Shown here: positions 42,629 to 50,618 of the stretch, piece after piece
Position numbering within the stretch: the first letter of the stretch is position 1
How the letters are laid out: the number at the start of each line of letters is the position of its first letter
Source: Enterobacter sp. 638
GTDB lineage: Bacteria; Pseudomonadota; Gammaproteobacteria; Enterobacterales; Enterobacteriaceae
NCBI RefSeq assembly: GCF_000016325.1
Contig: NC_009436.1
Coordinates: forward strand, 3,038,001-3,102,000
Direction: 5' to 3'
DNA: 64,000 nucleotides
Position numbers and translations under genes: made by a program
Notes under the pieces: model-generated
The model's input: the letters and a program-made list of their open reading frames with translations, nothing else
What the model was told of the DNA's origin: nothing
The model's database searches: none

Positions 42629-44770
42629 GTGTCCCGTATTATTATGCTCATCCCTACCGGAACCAGCGTCGGCCTGACCAGCGTCAGCCTTGGCGTTATC
42701 CGTGCTATGGAGCGCAAAGGCGTTCGTCTGAGCGTCTTTAAGCCTATCGCCCAGCCTCGTGCGGGTGGCGATGCGCCAGACCAAACCACTGCCATTGTGC
42801 GTGCCAATTCCAATCTGCCAGCGGCTGAACCGCTGAAGATGAGTCACGTTGAATCTCTGCTCTCCAGCAATCAGAAAGACGTGCTGATGGAAGAGATCAT
42901 CGCGAACTACCACGCAAATACCCAGAACGCGGAAGTGGTTCTGGTTGAAGGTCTGGTTCCGACGCGTAAACACCAGTTTGCTCAGTCACTGAACTACGAA
43001 ATCGCTAAGACTCTGAACGCAGAAATCGTGTTCGTGATGTCTCAGGGTACCGACACGCAGGAACAGCTGAAAGAACGTATTGAGCTGACCCGCAGCAGCT
43101 TCGGCGGCGCGAAAAACGCCAACATCACTGGCGTTATTGTCAACAAGCTGAACGCGCCTGTTGATGAACAAGGCCGTACTCGCCCTGATCTGTCAGAAAT
43201 TTTCGACGACTCTTCCAAAGCGACCGTCGTGAAAGTGGACCCTGCTCAGCTTAGCGAAAGCAGCCCACTGCCAATTCTGGGCGCGGTGCCGTGGAGCTTT
43301 GATCTGATTGCAACTCGTGCAATCGACATGGCACGCCACCTGAACGCTACCGTGGTTAACGAAGGCGACATTCAGACCCGCCGCGTGAAGTCCGTTACCT
43401 TCTGTGCGCGTAGCATTCCGCACATGCTGGAACACTTCCGTGCAGGTTCCCTGCTGGTGACTTCCGCAGACCGTCCAGACGTGCTGGTTGCAGCGTGCCT
43501 GGCCGCGATGAATGGCGTAGAAATCGGTGCGATTCTGCTGACCGGTGCATACGAAATGGACGCTCGTGTCAGCAAGCTGTGCGAACGTGCTTTCGCGACT
43601 GGCCTGCCAGTATTCATGGTGAACACCAACACCTGGCAGACCTCTCTGAGCCTGCAGAGCTTCAACCTGGAAGTTCCGGTTGACGACCATGAGCGTATCG
43701 AGAAAGTTCAGGAATACGTTGCAAGCTTCATCAATGCTGAGTGGATCGAATCCCTGACAGCGACCTCTGAGCGCAGCCGCCGTCTGTCTCCGCCAGCCTT
43801 CCGTTACCAGCTGACTGAGCTGGCACGTAAAGCCGGCAAACGCGTTGTTCTGCCAGAAGGTGATGAGCCACGTACCGTTAAAGCAGCTGCTATCTGCGCT
43901 GAGCGCGGAATCGCGACCTGCGTACTGCTCGGTAACCCTGATGAAATTACCCGCATCGCCGCATCTCAAGGCGTTGAACTGGGTTCAGGTATCGAAATCG
44001 TTGATCCAGAAGTGGTTCGCGAAAGCTATGTTGCCCGTCTGGTTGAGCTGCGTAAGAGCAAAGGCATGACCGAAGCCGTTGCGCGCGAACAGCTGGAAGA
44101 CAACGTGGTGCTGGGTACGCTGATGCTGGAACAGGATGAAGTTGATGGCCTGGTTTCTGGTGCGGTTCATACCACTGCGAACACCATTCGTCCGCCGCTG
44201 CAGTTGATCAAAACGGCACCAGGCAGTTCGCTGGTTTCATCTGTGTTCTTCATGCTGCTGCCAGAACAGGTTTATGTTTACGGTGACTGCGCGATCAACC
44301 CAGATCCAACCGCAGAACAGCTGGCTGAAATCGCGATTCAGTCTGCGGATTCCGCGATTGCCTTTGGTATCGAACCACGCGTTGCAATGCTTTCCTACTC
44401 TACCGGCACTTCGGGTGCAGGTAGCGATGTAGAGAAAGTGCGCGAAGCGACACGTCTGGCACAGGAAAAACGTCCTGATCTGATCATCGACGGTCCACTG
44501 CAGTATGACGCCGCCGTGATGGCTGATGTGGCGAAATCCAAAGCGCCAAACTCTCCGGTTGCGGGTCGCGCTACCGTGTTCATCTTCCCTGATTTGAACA
44601 CCGGTAACACCACCTATAAAGCGGTACAGCGTTCTGCCGACCTGATCTCCATTGGGCCGATGCTGCAAGGCATGCGCAAACCTGTGAACGACCTGTCCCG
44701 TGGCGCGCTGGTAGACGATATCGTTTATACCATTGCACTGACTGCGATTCAGTCTTCTCAGCAGCAGTAA
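42629..44770 (+). CDS. pta: Phosphate acetyltransferase Pta
   Basis: Interconverts acetyl-CoA and acetyl phosphate. Its 713 residues (E. coli 714) have the enterobacterial three-domain form. These are an N-terminal P-loop-like domain ([14 protein letters not shown]), a central DRTGG domain (about 225-335) that senses effectors, and the C-terminal PTA catalytic domain (about 390-710, with [16 protein letters not shown]). The start is GTG behind AGAGGA. It is followed by a strong terminator. Confidence 0.98.
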
Positions 44771-44787: not shown

Positions 44788-44816
44788 AAAAAAGGCGACC
44801 TGTTGGTCGCCTTTTT
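44788..44816. terminator. Bidirectional terminator between pta and the transketolase genes
   Basis: Six A residues, stem GGCGACC, loop TGTT, GGTCGCC and then five T residues plus ATTT. It serves the convergent pta and PTS/transketolase transcripts. Confidence 0.9.
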
Positions 44817-44829
44817 ATTTACTCTGGTA

Positions 44830-45783
44830 TTACAGCAACTCTCGCGCCGCTGACACAATATCGTGCGCCGTCAGACCATACTCTTTTTGCAAGAAATCCT
44901 GCGTTCCGACCTGACCGTAACGCTCTTTTACGCCCACGCGCCGCATCGGTACCGGGCACGTTTCGACCAGCACTTCCGCCACCGCCGAACCCAATCCGTT
45001 GTGGATGCTGTGGTTTTCGCAGGTCACAATCCGGCCTGTTTTTTCAGCGTAGTTTTTCACCAGCATTCGGTCGATAGGTTTCAGGGTGAACATATCGATG
45101 ACTGCCGCGCTTACGCCCTCCTGTTCAAGCTGACGTGCTGCTTCTAACGCTTCCGCAACCATGATTCCGTTGGCGATAAGGGTAATGTCGTGCCCTTCCC
45201 GCAATACGTTACCTTTGCCGATGGTAAACGTTGAGCCCGGCGCGTAAACGCTTGGCGCTTGCTTGCGGATTGTGCGGACCCAGTAGAATCCTTCCAGATC
45301 GATAAGCTGACGCAATACATCCTCAAACATCACGGCATCCGTCACTTCCAGCACCACGGAATGCGCCAGACCACGCACAATACCCATATCCTCAAATGAC
45401 ATGTGCGTACCGCCGTTATGGCAGGCTGTAACGCCTGCATCCGAAGCGATGACCTTGACGTTATTTCGCTGATAATCCAAAGACATAAACAGCTGGTCGA
45501 AACAGCGACGGCTGGCAAAAGCCGTAAAAGTATGCACAAACGGCTTACGTCCAGTCAGCGATAAACCCGCGGCCGTGCCAATCACGTTGGCTTCCATAAT
45601 GCCGCAGTTGATGACGTGCTGTGGATAATCACGCGCTACGCCATCCATCGCCATTGAGCTCATCAGGTCCGCTTCAAGAGCAATAATATCGCTGCCCGCT
45701 TCTATCTGACTCGCCACGAAACCGGCATACACTTTACGCATCTCAACAGCGTCTTTCTGTCCTGCGGGTGCAACCTTAATCAT
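44830..45783 (-). CDS. Split transketolase, C-terminal subunit
   Basis: 317-residue protein corresponding to the pyrimidine-binding and C-terminal domains of transketolase; Salmonella carries a similar gene at this locus. The catalytic glutamate is Glu64 in GIMEANVIG, and the aromatic pocket is in HTFTAFASRR. The motif HNGGTH (122-127) replaces GEDGPTH of E. coli TktA. By my alignment the TktA residues His461 and Asp469 become Ser114 and Asn123. The first hydrogen-bonds donor phosphate and the second reads acceptor C2 stereochemistry in yeast enzyme work. Arg173 keeps the phosphate-binding arginine. The start is ATG behind GGAGG, overlapping the N-subunit gene by eight bases. It is the last gene of a five-gene operon. 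Confidence 0.88.
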   Translation of the reverse strand: MIKVAPAGQKDAVEMRKVYAGFVASQIEAGSDIIALEADLMSSMAMDGVARDYPQHVINCGIMEANVIGTAAGLSLTGRKPFVHTFTAFASRRCFDQLFMSLDYQRNNVKVIASDAGVTACHNGGTHMSFEDMGIVRGLAHSVVLEVTDAVMFEDVLRQLIDLEGFYWVRTIRKQAPSVYAPGSTFTIGKGNVLREGHDITLIANGIMVAEALEAARQLEQEGVSAAVIDMFTLKPIDRMLVKNYAEKTGRIVTCENHSIHNGLGSAVAEVLVETCPVPMRRVGVKERYGQVGTQDFLQKEYGLTAHDIVSAARELL

Positions 45784-46606
45784 TTGCGGCCTCCAGTTGG
45801 CGAATCGTCTCGTTGAGCGCGGCTTTAACTTCATCCGTCAGGCGTAAATGGTGAGAGTTGCTAAGCTGCTCCAGATACGGCACGCCCTGCCCTTTTATAC
45901 TGTCGAGGATCACCACGCGCGGCCTGGCCTGAGCCTCAGGTACTGGCGCTACGACCTCGAGCAGACCGGGAATGTCATCGCCTTTGACCGTCATCACGTC
46001 AAAACCAAATGCGCGGAATTTACCTTCCAGATCAAAGGCGCAAATGATTTCGTCCAGTTCACCATCGAGCTGTTGTTTATTCCAGTCGACGAACACGGTC
46101 AGATTATTCAGACGGTGATGGGCAATAAACTGGAACGCTTCCCAGCACTGTCCTTCATTCAGCTCACCATCTCCCACAATGCAGAAGACGCGATTTGGCC
46201 GGCCCGCCAGCTTATGCGACAGCGCCATGCCGCCCGCAATGGAAATCCCCTGCCCCAGTGAACCGGTCGTGGCATCCACACCCCGCGTCTTGAGCCGATC
46301 CGGGTGGCTCGGCAGGCGTGTTCCGTTATGATTAAGCGTACTTAGCTCCGCAACCGGGAAATAGCCTTTAATCGCCAGCGTGCTGTAAAGCGCGGGACCG
46401 GCGTGGCCTTTCGACAGCACAAAGTAATCACGCTCTGACCAGTCGGGATCGGCTGGGTCGATTTTCATCACCGAACCGTAAAGTACCGCCAGGGTCTCGA
46501 CCACCGACATACTGCCGCCATAATGCCCAAAACCCAGCTGCGTTAGCGATTTGAGCGTCGCCACGCGGATATCACGCGCCAGTCGGGTAACCTCATTCAC
46601 ATTCAT
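45776..46606 (-). CDS. Split transketolase, N-terminal subunit
   Basis: 276-residue thiamine-diphosphate-binding half of transketolase. The diphosphate/Mg motif GDGELNEGQCWEA (145-157) with Asn176 is intact. The substrate-channel histidines are His28 (GHYGGSMS), His68 (SKGHAG) and His101 (LPSHPD), and SLGQG (116-120) is present. It needs the adjacent C-terminal subunit for a complete active site. Its ATG overlaps the stop of the PTS EIIC gene, coupling sugar import to the enzyme. The substrate is not known from sequence; the linked PTS argues for an imported ketose phosphate. Confidence 0.9.
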   Translation of the reverse strand: MNVNEVTRLARDIRVATLKSLTQLGFGHYGGSMSVVETLAVLYGSVMKIDPADPDWSERDYFVLSKGHAGPALYSTLAIKGYFPVAELSTLNHNGTRLPSHPDRLKTRGVDATTGSLGQGISIAGGMALSHKLAGRPNRVFCIVGDGELNEGQCWEAFQFIAHHRLNNLTVFVDWNKQQLDGELDEIICAFDLEGKFRAFGFDVMTVKGDDIPGLLEVVAPVPEAQARPRVVILDSIKGQGVPYLEQLSNSHHLRLTDEVKAALNETIRQLEAAND

Positions 46607-47994
46607 GATTTAGCTCCGGTGTTTTCCTGCGCATTACCGCCAGCAGATTTGTTTTTAGCAAACACGTTGTAGGCCACCAGCAGGGCGAATACCGCCACGA
46701 CAAGGCCTGTAATCGCAAACGGTGAGAGATAACGCGCGAGGTTGCCCAACAGAATCCCGACAGCACCGAAGTCAGCGTCCGAGAACGTGGTGTTAGAAAA
46801 CCCGATTGCGCCGAGCACTGGCAGCAGCAGGACTGGGAGGAACGTGATCAGCAGACCGTTGGCAAATGCACCAATCATCGCGCCACGACGGCCGCCCGTC
46901 GCATTCCCAAATACACCCGCTGTCGCACCAGTGAAGAAGTGTGGAACTACGCCAGGCAGGATCAGCACCCAGTTCAACTGGCCGCAGATTAACAAGCCCA
47001 CCAGTCCACCCAGGAAGCTGAACAGGAAACCGATCAGCACGGCGTTAGGGGCGTAGGGATAAACTACCGGACAGTCCAGCGCAGGGCGCGCATTCGGTAC
47101 CAGTTTTTCCGAGAATCCGGTAAAGGCCGGAACGATTTCTGCCAGAATCAGACGCACACCCTGCAGGATGATGAACACGCCAGCGGCGAACGTAATGGCC
47201 ATGATAATTGCGTAAACCAGGTAGTTTTGCCCGCCGCTGTACGTGCTTTCTACATACTCGCGTCCGGCACTCACCGCCATGATCAGATAAATAATCATCA
47301 TGGTCAGCGAGATAGAAATTGAGCTGTCGCGCAGGAAGCTCAGGTTCTTCGGCAGATTCATCTCTTCCGTTGAACGTGAACCCTTACCGCATTTGCTGCC
47401 GATCCAACCGGAAAGCACGTAGCCCAGAGTACCGAAGTGACCAAAGGCGATATCGTCGTTACCGGTGATACGTTTCATGTAGCGCTGCGCGATCGCGGGG
47501 AAGAACGCCATCACCAGACCAAGAATCAACGAGCCGGTAAAGACCAGACCGACGCCTTCAAACCCAGCGACCGTCAGGATCACACCGATCATACATGCCA
47601 TATAAAAAGTGTGGTGGCCGGTGAGGAAGATGTATTTAAGGCGCGTAAAGCGGGCGACAATAATATTTGCCACCATACCAAAGGCCATAATCAGCGCGGT
47701 TGATGCGCCATATTTTTCCAGAGCGATGGAAACAATCGCTTCATTATTCGGGATAATCCCCTGAATATTGAATGCGTGCTCAAACATACCGCCTAATGGA
47801 TTTAATGATCCGACCAGTACGGTCGCACCACCGCCCAAGACAATAAAGCCGAGAATGGTTTTAATCGTACCTTTAACGACATCAGAAAAAGGTTTTTTCT
47901 GCGCCACCAGCCCGATCAATGCAATTAAGCCAACCAGTACCGAAGGGACTTTTAAAATATCAACAACGAAGTTCAGCGTTTCGAGGATAAACAT
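46603..47994 (-). CDS. PTS EIIC, ascorbate/Ula (SgaT) family permease
   Basis: 463-residue membrane permease of the UlaA/SgaT type (UlaA has 465). About ten or eleven hydrophobic segments are visible, with conserved glycine-rich stretches such as VLGGGATVLVGSLNPLGGMF (about 52-71), and GHHTFYMA and PHFFTGATAGVFGN. The start is the ATG at 47992-47994 behind GGTGG; twenty in-frame codons upstream look non-coding. It imports and phosphorylates its sugar with the EIIB and EIIA encoded upstream. Real L-ascorbate use would need the ula catabolic enzymes, which are absent here, so another substrate is more likely. Confidence 0.92.
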   Translation of the reverse strand: MFILETLNFVVDILKVPSVLVGLIALIGLVAQKKPFSDVVKGTIKTILGFIVLGGGATVLVGSLNPLGGMFEHAFNIQGIIPNNEAIVSIALEKYGASTALIMAFGMVANIIVARFTRLKYIFLTGHHTFYMACMIGVILTVAGFEGVGLVFTGSLILGLVMAFFPAIAQRYMKRITGNDDIAFGHFGTLGYVLSGWIGSKCGKGSRSTEEMNLPKNLSFLRDSSISISLTMMIIYLIMAVSAGREYVESTYSGGQNYLVYAIIMAITFAAGVFIILQGVRLILAEIVPAFTGFSEKLVPNARPALDCPVVYPYAPNAVLIGFLFSFLGGLVGLLICGQLNWVLILPGVVPHFFTGATAGVFGNATGGRRGAMIGAFANGLLITFLPVLLLPVLGAIGFSNTTFSDADFGAVGILLGNLARYLSPFAITGLVVAVFALLVAYNVFAKNKSAGGNAQENTGAKS

Positions 47995-48010
47995 ATCCAC
48001 CTCACTAAAG

Positions 48011-48283
48011 TTATTGTTTGTCGAACCAGGCGCGTAATTGCGCTTCGAGTTCATTAATGTCGATGATGTTGTTGATCACCACCAGCTGGCTTTCAGGCAC
48101 GCTTGCGCTGGCGGCGATATCTTTCGCCATCACGAAAACGTCGGCAGCACCCGGCGTGGCGGATGACAGATCGGAGTGCTCTACTTCAGCTTCAATATTT
48201 AATTTTTTTAGCACTTTTTTGATATTCATTTCGACCATGAAACTGCTGCCCAGGCCGGAACCACAAATCGCCATAATTTTCAT
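48011..48283 (-). CDS. PTS EIIB, lactose/ascorbate-type
   Basis: 90-residue soluble phosphocarrier. The phosphorylated cysteine is Cys7 in MAICGSGLGSSFM, the P-loop-like motif of UlaB-type EIIB domains. It lies 16 bases before the EIIC gene and 77 bases after EIIA, all on the minus strand. It transfers phosphate from EIIA to the incoming sugar. Confidence 0.9.
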   Translation of the reverse strand: MKIMAICGSGLGSSFMVEMNIKKVLKKLNIEAEVEHSDLSSATPGAADVFVMAKDIAASASVPESQLVVINNIIDINELEAQLRAWFDKQ

Positions 48284-48360
48284 TGTTATGCCTTTTTCGA
48301 GTAGAGTACATCCGCATCACGCGCAGGCGTAATGTGTTTATTTATTGGAATGCGTAATAT

Positions 48361-48804
48361 CTAGAATCGTTCGATGACGGCGTTTATTTCCTCCCGTGTG
48401 TTTGCCCTGTGCAATTCAGCCAAATCGTCATCACTGGAAAATAACTCAGCCAGCGCAGAAATCATTTCGATGTGACTATTTTTGTCAGGTGCAGCAAGCA
48501 TGATGATAATATCAACCGGATCGAATTCTCCGGCACCAAATGAAACTCCCTGTTTAAGTTTTAATAATGAGAGACCCAGTCCTTTAGCCCCTTCTTCTGG
48601 CCGCGCATGCGGCATCGCTAGCCCTGGTGCCAGCACATAATACGGTCCTAACTTATGATGTTGCTCAACGATCGCCGTAACGTATTCCGGAGCAATCACG
48701 TTCACATCCAGCAATGGCTGGGCACATATCTCCAGTGCCTGTGCCCAGTTTTCAACCCGATCCTCGAGAATGATGGTGGCATCGTTTAACCATTTATTGA
48801 GCAC
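48361..48804 (-). CDS. PTS EIIA, mannitol/fructose (UlaC)-type
   Basis: 147-residue EIIA of the PTS_EIIA_2 fold. The phosphorylated histidine is His66 in GLAMPHARPEEG, and a second conserved segment is FDPVDIIIMLAAPDKNSH. The start is taken as GTG 48802-48804, six bases behind AGGAG; the frame remains open upstream to a TTG at 48849 but without a ribosome site. It is the first gene of the operon, next to the divergent regulator and its operators. Confidence 0.88.
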   Translation of the reverse strand: MLNKWLNDATIILEDRVENWAQALEICAQPLLDVNVIAPEYVTAIVEQHHKLGPYYVLAPGLAMPHARPEEGAKGLGLSLLKLKQGVSFGAGEFDPVDIIIMLAAPDKNSHIEMISALAELFSSDDDLAELHRANTREEINAVIERF

Positions 48805-48865
48805 TGTCTTCTCCTGCCCTTGCGCCTGGAATGAGCAAACTTTATTCAACCCATGAATAGTTAGC

Positions 48866-48881
48866 TGCGATCAAGATCACA
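48866..48881 (-). promoter_or_regulatory. CRP-like site upstream of the PTS/transketolase operon
   Basis: TGCGATCAAGATCACA matches nine of ten positions of the consensus TGTGA-N6-TCACA. It lies about 70 bases before the EIIA start and two bases from the first palindromic operator, a suitable place for catabolite activation of a PTS operon. Confidence 0.6.
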
Positions 48882-48883
48882 AA

Positions 48884-48895
48884 GATAGCGCTACC
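48884..48895. promoter_or_regulatory. Candidate LacI-type operator O1
   Basis: GATAGCGCTACC is a palindrome with one mismatch. It has the central CpG dyad typical of LacI/GntR-family operators and the same core as O2, whose centre is 34 bases away. Confidence 0.6.
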
Positions 48896-48916
48896 AATCT
48901 TTAACATCCAAAATTG

Positions 48917-48930
48917 TGATAGCGCTATCA
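48917..48930. promoter_or_regulatory. Candidate LacI-type operator O2
   Basis: TGATAGCGCTATCA is a perfect 14-bp palindrome with a central CG. It lies between the divergent promoters of the PTS operon and the LacI-family gene, as expected for repression of both. A TATACT at 48979-48984 is a candidate -10 for the regulator gene. Confidence 0.65.
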
Positions 48931-49040
48931 AATTACAATCAGCGCGGGAAATCACAGTAAAAAAAGGGATTTAAGGCGTATACTGAATCAACGTGAAGCG
49001 AAGGATGAGAAGAAAATCGCGTCTGTCATCAGGAACGAGT

Positions 49041-50060
49041 ATGTCTTTAACCCGAAAACGACGTAGTACCGGCAAAGTGACGATCTCTGACGTCGCGCAG
49101 CTTGCCGGCGTGGGTACCATGACGGTGTCCCGCGCATTGCGCACGCCCGAACAGGTTTCCGATAAGCTACGAGAAAAAATAGAAGCGGCGGTGCATGAAC
49201 TGGGATATATGCCCAACCTTGCCGCTAGTGCGCTGGCATCGGCGTCATCATGGACCATCGCAATGGTCGTTCCCAATCTTGCAGAAGATGGCTGTTCTGA
49301 GATGTTTGCCGGATTGCAGCAAATCCTGCAACCTGCCGGATACCAGATCATCCTGGCTGAATCTCAACACCGCCCCGAACAAGAAGAGAAATTACTGGAA
49401 ACGCTGCTGGCATCGAATATCGCAGCCGCTATCTTACTCAGCGTTGAACATACCGACACCGTCCGCCATTGGCTGAAAAACGCGTCAATTCCGGTGATGG
49501 AAATGGGTGCGATGCGCGCCGACCCGCTCGATATGAACATTGGAATTGATAACGTTGCGGCGATGTACGAGATAACCGAACTGGTCATTCAGCGGGGATA
49601 TCAAAACATTGGTCTGCTGTGCGCCAATCAGGAACAGTGGATTTTCCAGCAGCATCTGCAAGGCTGGTATAAAGCGATGTTACGCCACCACCTTTCGCCT
49701 AACAGAGTGATCAATGCTGCGCTCCCGCCTAATTTCTCGACCGGCGCGTCACAACTGCCGGAGTTTTTACTCGCCTGGCCGGAACTGGATGCGCTGGTGT
49801 GTGTTTCGGATGAGCTGGCGTGCGGGGTGTTGTACGAATGTCAGCGCAGACGCATCAAAGTGCCTGACGATCTGGCCGTCGTCGGTTTTGGCGATAGTGA
49901 TGTGAGCCGCGTCTGTCAGCCACCTTTGACCACAATGGCTGTGCCACACCGCAAGATTGGTGTTGAAGCCGGACGGGCTTTGCTGGAACGGATGAATGGC
50001 GGCGACTGGCGCGATCAGAAACCGATCGCCTCCAGTCTGTGTCTGCGGGAAAGTTGCTAA
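49041..50060 (+). CDS. LacI/GntR-family transcriptional regulator
   Basis: 339-residue repressor of the LacI family, closest in style to GntR. The N-terminal helix-turn-helix and hinge (about 10-60) read VTISDVAQLAGVGTMTVSRALR, then LGYMPNLAASALAS. A periplasmic-binding-protein-like effector domain follows (about 65-335). The start is ATG 49041 behind AGGA; an in-frame GTG at 48993 has no good ribosome site and would add an arginine-rich tail. It is divergent from the PTS/transketolase operon with paired palindromes between, so it is very probably its local regulator. The effector is unknown. Confidence 0.9.
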   Translation: MSLTRKRRSTGKVTISDVAQLAGVGTMTVSRALRTPEQVSDKLREKIEAAVHELGYMPNLAASALASASSWTIAMVVPNLAEDGCSEMFAGLQQILQPAGYQIILAESQHRPEQEEKLLETLLASNIAAAILLSVEHTDTVRHWLKNASIPVMEMGAMRADPLDMNIGIDNVAAMYEITELVIQRGYQNIGLLCANQEQWIFQQHLQGWYKAMLRHHLSPNRVINAALPPNFSTGASQLPEFLLAWPELDALVCVSDELACGVLYECQRRRIKVPDDLAVVGFGDSDVSRVCQPPLTTMAVPHRKIGVEAGRALLERMNGGDWRDQKPIASSLCLRESC

Positions 50061-50063
50061 GGC

Positions 50064-50618
50064 CTATTCAGCCTGTTCTTGCTTTTCAGGTTTAGCGGAT
50101 TCATTTTTGGCATTGCGGCTCATCCACAGAGCCAGCGCTTTAAGTGAGTCCGGCGTAAACTCATCGCAGCGCGCGGTAATCTCTTCTGGCGTCATCCAGC
50201 TCACTTCGCTCACTTCTTCTTCCTGAAGCGCAAAAGGTCCGTGGGACACGCAGCTAAACAGGCCTCCCCAGACACGGCAGTGCGGATCTTCAAAATAGAA
50301 CTGACCGTGCTCGGCAAACGGTACGCCCGCAATGCCTAACTCTTCTTCTGCTTCGCGGCGAGCAGAGTCCAGCAGAATTTCATCTGCCTGCACGACGCCT
50401 CCTGCGGTGGCATCCAGCATACCCGGAAGAAAATCTTTTGTTTCAGTACGTCGCTGTACCAGGATCTTACCCATTCCGTCGTGGACAACGATGTAAGTTG
50501 CGCGATGACGCAGACGCTGCGCGCGCATTTGCTCGCGGCTCGCCTGGGCGATCACGTCATTGTCTTCGTTGACAATATCAACCCATTCTGTACTTGCCAA
50601 ATGACTCTGCTCCACCAT
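50064..50618 (-). CDS. yfcD: Nudix hydrolase YfcD
   Basis: 184-residue Nudix protein related to isopentenyl-diphosphate isomerases, corresponding to E. coli YfcD (180 aa). The Nudix box is complete: [24 protein letters not shown] at about 73-96, with the RE..EE metal-binding core. The C-terminal tail is charged ([12 protein letters not shown]). The physiological substrate is unknown. It ends three bases from the convergent regulator gene, with no visible terminator. Confidence 0.93.

Follow-up and report, generated by a model that had tools for sequence, protein, structure and literature searches.

A phosphotransferase system joined to a split transketolase

The 64,000-nucleotide stretch of Enterobacter sp. 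638 analysed here (contig NC_009436.1, positions 3,038,001 to 3,102,000; hereafter the window) carries an operon in which a phosphotransferase system (PTS) with a UlaA-type permease is followed by the two genes of a split transketolase (TK). This locus raises the question of which sugar enters by a PTS whose name in the databases refers to ascorbate, and of what a TK does behind it. We favour, with moderate confidence, the import and phosphorylation of a ketose followed by direct two-carbon transfer by a dedicated, re-shaped TK, the PTS product being the TK donor. The observations that carry this reading were made on the sequences: the gene content, the operon structure, a conserved operator, the linkage of the TK to the permease (EIIC) in a sample of the family, a sugar pocket unlike that for ascorbate and an altered TK active site. 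Published work is cited by PMC number, and the handles L, G and f denote our loci, genomes and families.

As predicted originally, the five genes of the minus strand (EIIA, EIIB, EIIC and the subunits TK-N and TK-C) are tightly packed, EIIC overlapping TK-N by 4 bp and TK-N overlapping TK-C by 8 bp, and a LacI-type regulator is divergent (Table 1). All five are intact reading frames that match the expected families, and we confirmed that no isomerase, kinase, epimerase or aldolase lies within the window's operon. EIIC belongs to the PF03611 family (511.7 bits; structure match UlaA 4rp8, E 1.4e-50) and scored 1010.5 bits against NF009549, 'PTS ascorbate transporter subunit IIC' (cut-off 890). 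The NCBIfam names closest to the regulator were GntR/IdnR, every one below cut-off.

The locus is itself not new: it is the ortholog of a widespread, uncharacterised Enterobacterales locus and belongs to a known ula2-like group. In Streptococcus pneumoniae, ula2 (ulaR2-ulaB2-ulaA2-tktN-tktC; SPD_1957-1961 / SP2127-2131; PMC4324149, PMC3302838) shows the same order of EIIB, UlaA-type EIIC, TK-N and TK-C and no other enzyme, a likeness drawn from the published gene content; it has a multidomain PRD-type activator with an EIIA domain, whereas the window has a LacI regulator and a separate EIIA. The PRD/BglG-type activator of ula2-type operons is thus absent from the window. The Salmonella locus beside pta, which as a whole we take to be STM2340-2345, consists of the same six genes; in two subspecies of S. 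enterica (L047 and L048) TK-N, TK-C, EIIB, EIIC and LacI are 88-96% identical to those of the window and EIIA 76-77%, and, unlike the window, these loci also retain yfcC. STM2342 has been named as the EIIC of the Salmonella locus (PMC9714038). No assignment of a substrate for this operon, including the Salmonella locus, was found in the open-access literature searched.

The PTS-linked transketolases form a clade with an altered active site

The closest solved structure for both subunits was 6yak (for TK-C also 6yaj), the split TK of Carboxydothermus hydrogenoformans, which has two chains like the window's enzyme and, unlike it, the canonical motif H...GEDG (PMC7661550). The window's TK-C reads SDAGVTACHNGGTHM where the canonical form is [ST]H......GEDG..H. 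The residues that bind thiamine diphosphate and Mg or take part in catalysis in E. coli TktA (H26, H66, H100, D155, N185, H261 and E411) are all retained. Members of the Enterobacterales group also keep the donor/phosphate residues R358, S385 and R520; at 385, A predominates in Bacillaceae and Enterococcus. The canonical H461/E468/D469 of TktA is replaced in the window by D115/H122/N123, as assigned by an ungapped alignment with the C. hydrogenoformans TK (one small alignment moved the gap and placed S114 opposite H461).

We found the D/H/N combination in all 98 records of TK-C genes linked to this PTS (96 by the first pattern and two with one extra residue; some genes are counted twice, their loci being present twice) and in none of the 13 split TKs not adjoining it. 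In protein lists without gene context, D-H-N was present in 117 of 120 relatives of the window's TK (one each of DYN, DYH and GYH), in 115 of 120 relatives of the Niallia TK (five DFN) and in 117 of 120 relatives of the Enterococcus TK (one DYN, one DQN and one unmatched). In the tree, the PTS-linked TK-Cs formed a single clade (support 100/100). H461 of E. coli TK has been associated with substrate phosphates, and H461, D469 and R520, together with E468 on structural grounds, are described as a co-evolved network (PMC3657141). Three of these four are exchanged jointly in the PTS-linked TK; the window's operon pairs a transporter of the kind treated as an ascorbate system in pneumococcal ula2 with a TK clade of exchanged co-evolved positions.

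The original prediction drew an analogy with split TKs acting on apulose 4-phosphate, in which case the PTS would import apulose and the TK would cleave its phosphate into dihydroxyacetone phosphate and a two-carbon unit. Chemically this would be the neatest one-step pathway, and the UniRef name of one relative, 89% identical, is 'Apulose-4-phosphate transket...'. The split TKs accompanied by an FGGY kinase (L143, L146, L148 and L149), in loci that we take to be a putative apiose/apulose route, form a separate clade (100/100) with A358, T385, N461 and G520, as against R358, S385 and R520 here. Their kinases are closest to the glycerol kinase family, below its cut-off, and L146 and L149 also hold a gene nearest to sulfoquinovose isomerase (far below cut-off) and ABC-transporter-like genes. 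No apulose kinase or apiose isomerase neighbours were found in the window's operon, and between the core genes of 79 orthologous loci there is no room for them. The analogy is not supported by the clade or the active site, the comparison clade being itself only putatively that of apulose; apulose, though possible, is disfavoured on these grounds, and we regard it as unlikely.

Two further kinds of split TK were encountered. The window's own genome has a second pair (L141; contig 2, 2710495-2711385) with the motif LASGFAMGMFGTTH, beside two genes resembling short-chain dehydrogenases/reductases (SDR) and ligase/reductase-like genes (by eye), which looks biosynthetic. In L144, L145, L147 and L089, a further clade lies near SDR-like genes and genes like those of the major facilitator superfamily; its N subunit has Y26 and S100 and its motif is LPGLTTGYGPSH.

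The permease pocket differs from that of the ascorbate transporter

If the family name were taken at its word, the PTS would be a second ula system importing L-ascorbate, and the TK would assist pentose-phosphate steps; the EIIC score above the NF009549 cut-off favours this, as does the ascorbate induction reported for pneumococcal ula2, about 2-3 fold (PMC4324149). We compared the window's EIIC, aligned at about 30% identity, with E. coli UlaA at 12 of its listed ascorbate contacts (PMC6048161), M410 being dropped because its alignment shifted between two alignments. The window reads A N E H H Y H F R D V F where UlaA reads S T Y H I Q H Q R D I F. Fold and family are shared and H135, H194, R288, D314 and F362 are retained, but seven of the 12 positions differ (S59A, T86N, Y87E, I136H, Q139Y, Q195F and I358V), with a Glu in place of Tyr87. 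The window's letters were found in 100 of 101 TK-linked EIIC rows (window included), the exception being E. gallinarum with A and T at two positions.

The enzymes of the E. coli ula system are also missing. For the UlaG lactonase, the best match in the window's genome was partial and merely 25% identical (E 1.6e-4), and for the UlaD decarboxylase there was none at E 0.001. Of 23 other members of the genus, 20 have an ortholog (95-97%) by the same UlaG query. Among the genomes tested for UlaD, all 4 with UlaG have it (95-96%) and the 3 without UlaG do not. The case raised beside the original prediction, of ascorbate feeding ula enzymes elsewhere in the genome, is thereby contradicted for this genome. 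Apart from the window's EIIC, it contains a single EIIC-GAT gene (36% identical); neither EIIA nor EIIB was seen around that gene in the 4.2 kb examined. Three other genomes of the genus (G576, G577 and G459) lack both UlaG and UlaD, like that of the window (G000).

A third line of evidence comes from Proteus mirabilis, whose 'UlaABC' is reported to be induced in mouse urinary infection and contributes to fitness in combination mutants; PMC13289894 reports no growth on ascorbate, its authors suspect misannotation, and they leave the substrate as an explicit open question. We infer that this system, PMI1775-1777, corresponds to the LacI-EIIA-EIIB-EIIC locus beside yfcD in a P. mirabilis H110 record (listed as plasmid, L189:6382-10230), whose EIIC is 63% identical to the window's with a pocket one letter off; unlike in the window, no TK was seen within the 19 kb examined. 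A non-ascorbate pocket fits the published failure to grow on ascorbate. On the pocket, the genome content and the Proteus growth data we rejected ascorbate as the substrate and consider it very improbable. What enters by the PTS labelled as an ascorbate importer in many enteric genomes is very probably not ascorbate, and that the window's PTS imports a ketose other than ascorbate is a view we hold more firmly than the two-carbon transfer scheme as a whole.

The transporter and the transketolase are linked across the family

A TK-N scan of genome contigs, from which the best 80 of 242 relatives were kept, gave loci that are all Enterobacterales by title except L044. The five genes and the LacI gene were complete in 79 of the 80 orthologous loci, the exception (L024) being cut by the contig end; in the 79, the spacing between neighbouring core genes was at most 225 bp and nothing was inserted. 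Both yfcD and pta were present in the examined stretch at 68 of the 80. Among 198 genomes of the family, TK-C (E <= 1e-120) was found in 42, and an EIIC match adjoined it on the same contig in all 42, with two imperfect matches (partial with a stop in G732, one stop in G612); reciprocally, an EIIC of at least 884 bits was found in 41 genomes and TK was present in every one. A class-wide survey of 274 genomes (E <= 1e-60) returned the window's own match only, with just two other genomes of the same order among those listed.

The same association was seen in Gram-positive bacteria. On a Niallia taxi megaplasmid, EIIB-EIIC-TK-N-TK-C stands alone behind a BglG-type regulator with an EIIA-like part (identities to the window of 62% for EIIC, 61% for TK-N and 54% for TK-C), and an E. 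gallinarum plasmid has the same core with a BglG-type regulator, TK-C running off the record end. The gene-neighbourhood check suggested with the original prediction thus bore out the co-occurrence of Ula-type EIIC and split TK, and the view that PTS and TK form one self-contained module is supported. Another part of that prediction, that the operon replaces yfcC, was rejected: yfcC was not found in the window, but it adjoins the operon on the pta side in 11 of 81 sequences (80 loci and the window), for example in Salmonella arizonae/diarizonae, E. albertii, E. whittamii and Citrobacter. In E. coli K-12 the operon is absent from this position.

The locus titled Chryseobacterium (L044) has the typical enterobacterial form and is probably mislabelled or contaminated. 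In L126 (G545), a TK-bearing operon, the stretch from EIIB to the LacI gene showed no EIIA open reading frame (ORF) of at least 85 aa.

Sister operons carry other enzymes for ketose phosphates

We then considered EIICs 57-61% identical to the window's that are followed by other enzymes. Transaldolase comes next in L156, L157 (above the NCBIfam transaldolase cut-offs) and L168, and after EIIA in L174, all of one genus; fructose-6-phosphate aldolase (FSA) comes next in L161 (above cut-off) and L176, which share one genus; and D-allulose-6-phosphate 3-epimerase (AlsE) in L137 (above cut-off) and L163 (83% identical to it). On a Vagococcus lutrae plasmid (L192:3646-9276), BglG-EIIB-EIIC (EIIC 45%) precedes a full-length canonical TK with H461 and D469. 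Traces of tktA were also seen: L156 has a broken copy beyond TalB, matched in pieces only up to residue 486, and a 42-residue remnant of the TktA C-terminus (L137:7373-7498) lies directly past AlsE in what is a second PTS operon in a genome of the window's genus. The transaldolase loci L156, L157, L168 and L174 lie in another family and are candidates for a sedoheptulose or fructose-type route.

Compared with the window, the pocket shows a single change, Y to F, in L156, L157, L168, L161 and L176, Y to F plus R to K in L174, and N to T and E to D in the AlsE-linked EIIC; in Vagococcus four of 12 positions differ. In this family of PTS operons the sugar pocket is therefore almost invariant, while the enzyme behind it may be TK, transaldolase, FSA or epimerase. 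To judge by our searches, neither this interchange nor the D/H/N clade appears to be mentioned in the open-access literature covered. Among the EIIC rows without an adjoining TK-N (n=67), 55 had no downstream gene matching our reference set, redundant and partial loci included.

Because transaldolase, FSA, the 3-epimerase and full-length TK are all enzymes for ketose phosphates, the EIIC family probably imports ketoses. This also bears on the idea that the PTS brings in an aldose whose phosphate the TK uses as acceptor and not as donor. Mutating D469 of E. coli TK does alter acceptor preference as well (PMC3657141), but the transaldolase, FSA and AlsE of the sister operons act on ketose phosphates, and we think such a role improbable.

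Some orthologs of the permease lack the transketolase

In 26 genomes with an EIIC of the family, a search for the PTS-type TK-C found it in 10 and did not find it in 16. Ten of these 16 belong to f196 (G339, G401, G550, G373, G462 and G560), f3 (G477, G345 and G555) and f176 (G277), of which f196 and f3 are presumably Orbaceae and Pasteurellaceae; the EIIC orthologs of these ten are 75-79% identical to the window's and have the same 12 pocket residues. The other six hold an EIIC with a V/T pocket (G368, G289 and G538) or of the sister clades (G529, G518 and G541). In the EIIC tree, TK-bearing and TK-less rows occur together both within f196 and within f3, and the branching of the two Gram-positive TK-linked rows relative to the Gram-negative clades is unresolved; the tree program warns of long branches.

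The simplest reading is that the TK was lost more than once. House-keeping enzymes would therefore be able to handle the product, at least partly, which favours sedoheptulose 7-phosphate or pentulose 5-phosphates. The PTS might then deliver D-xylulose 5-phosphate or D-ribulose 5-phosphate, a house-keeping metabolite, with the TK pair only adding capacity. Such a role would account for the pocket-identical orthologs without TK and for the full-length canonical TK beside the Vagococcus EIIC, even though the pocket of the latter differs at four positions; moreover, Bidossi et al. 2012 (PMC3302838) had earlier suggested a ketopentose as substrate of the pneumococcal homologue. However, D/H/N in every PTS-linked TK-C record is unexpected for a canonical xylulose 5-phosphate enzyme, and a transaldolase as sole partner better suits a six- or seven-carbon ketose. 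We regard added pentulose capacity as a genuine, if tentative, possibility.

In the V/T-pocket group (Pantoea plasmid L085; L131, L132 and L136), two pocket positions read V/T, the regulator is GntR-like and the TK is absent; its sugar is perhaps a different one. In L129, a deoC gene (L129:10055-10729; above the NCBIfam cut-off) that may be house-keeping lies 198 bp 3' of a TK-less EIIC ortholog. The second TK-less locus of that family, L130, has no deoC.

A proposed route and its candidate substrates

In the scheme that we favour, EIIA-EIIB-EIIC under LacI control would import a non-ascorbate ketose and phosphorylate its far end. The dedicated TK pair would use the resulting ketose phosphate as its two-carbon donor, moving C1-C2 onto a house-keeping aldose phosphate; the shortened phosphate would enter the pentose-phosphate pathway or glycolysis, and therefore no further pathway-specific enzyme would be needed. 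The ketose nature of the sugar, the terminal position of the phosphate and the identity of the PTS product with the TK donor are what we infer here. The claim of the original prediction, that the PTS feeds the dedicated TK directly, gains from the linkage (79 of 80 loci, 42 of 42 TK-C genes, Niallia and E. gallinarum) and from the ketose enzymes of the sister operons; it is weakened as regards the TK being a required step.

Several points weigh against this scheme. The pocket-identical EIICs of the ten TK-less genomes mean that the TK is dispensable or that the PTS product is already a house-keeping metabolite. An Asp at the phosphate-associated H461 is odd for an ordinary phosphoketose donor. 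Ascorbate is reported to induce pneumococcal ula2, as said above. In the open-access literature searched, no member with a demonstrated substrate was found, and the single genomic place of the operator, equal to the control count, gives little information on the size of the regulon.

Altogether, the pocket, the TK and the sister operons narrow the class of possible substrates. Among ketoses, a heptulose (for instance sedoheptulose) or a pentulose (for instance xylulose or ribulose) seems the best candidate, though there is none which we would put forward singly as more than a tentative choice. A self-contained route for a free heptulose, in which the PTS would make a heptulose 7-phosphate and the TK would cut off a two-carbon unit to leave a pentose 5-phosphate, seems to us rather unlikely, less so than apulose. 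If the sugar were sedoheptulose, the same product would explain the transaldolase, FSA and full-length TK partners of the sister operons as well as the TK-less orthologs. With mannoheptulose, or another heptulose inverted at C4, the exchanges at H461 and D469 would match the inverted hydroxyl, and the TK would yield arabinose 5-phosphate, which cells ordinarily use to build lipopolysaccharide. These likelihoods are not shares of a whole, the apulose and heptulose routes being sub-cases of the favoured scheme and the pentulose one overlapping it in part.

Features of the locus and its intergenic elements

Table 1. Positions in the window of the operon genes, the divergent regulator and the predicted intergenic elements.
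Feature	Position	Strand	Basis and remarks
TK-C, transketolase C subunit (Pyr and C-terminal domains), 317 aa	44830-45783	-	ATG; PF02779 and PF02780
TK-N, transketolase N subunit (thiamine diphosphate-binding), 276 aa	45776-46606	-	PF00456
EIIC, GAT/UlaA-type PTS permease, 463 aa	46603-47994	-	PF03611, NF009549; UlaA structures 4rp8 and 5zov
EIIB, 90 aa	48011-48283	-	PF02302
EIIA, 147 aa	48361-48804	-	GTG start preferred, ORF opens at 48849; PF00359
LacI-family regulator, 339 aa	49041-50060	+	ATG preferred, ORF opens with GTG at 48993; PF00356 and PF13377
Perfect palindrome TGATAGCGCTATCA, likely operator of the LacI regulator (predicted)	48917-48930		between EIIA and regulator
Second, weaker operator-like site AGATAGCGCTACCA	48883-48896		consensus match
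CRP-like site TGCGATCAAGATCACA	48866-48881		resemblance to consensus only
Terminator-like hairpin, between pta (+) and operon (-)	44789-44816		consensus match only

The choice of the EIIA start agrees with the 444-nt EIIA ORFs seen in many orthologs. Outside the operon, pta ends at position 44770 and the yfcD ORF starts at 50618 on the minus strand.

Of 81 sequences examined, 80 had both flanking genes located, and the palindrome TGATAGCGCTATCA was found in every one of these 80 with at most 2 mismatches. With at most 1 mismatch it occurred at a single place in the 4.68-Mb genome, and the reversed control pattern also occurred once per strand; the count alone therefore proves nothing, and it is the conservation that argues for an operator. 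This genome scan, a weak test, revealed no hidden members of a regulon. A terminator scan gave 8 sites like the hairpin, compared with 6.2 in shuffled sequences, and the hairpin is hence listed as a consensus match only.

In a few loci where pta is distant or outside the stretch, same-strand genes were seen by eye 3' of TK-C. These are mannose-type PTS-like genes about 700 bp past TK-C in L007, ATPase-like genes in L038, L053 and L056, and a small lipoprotein-like ORF in L064.

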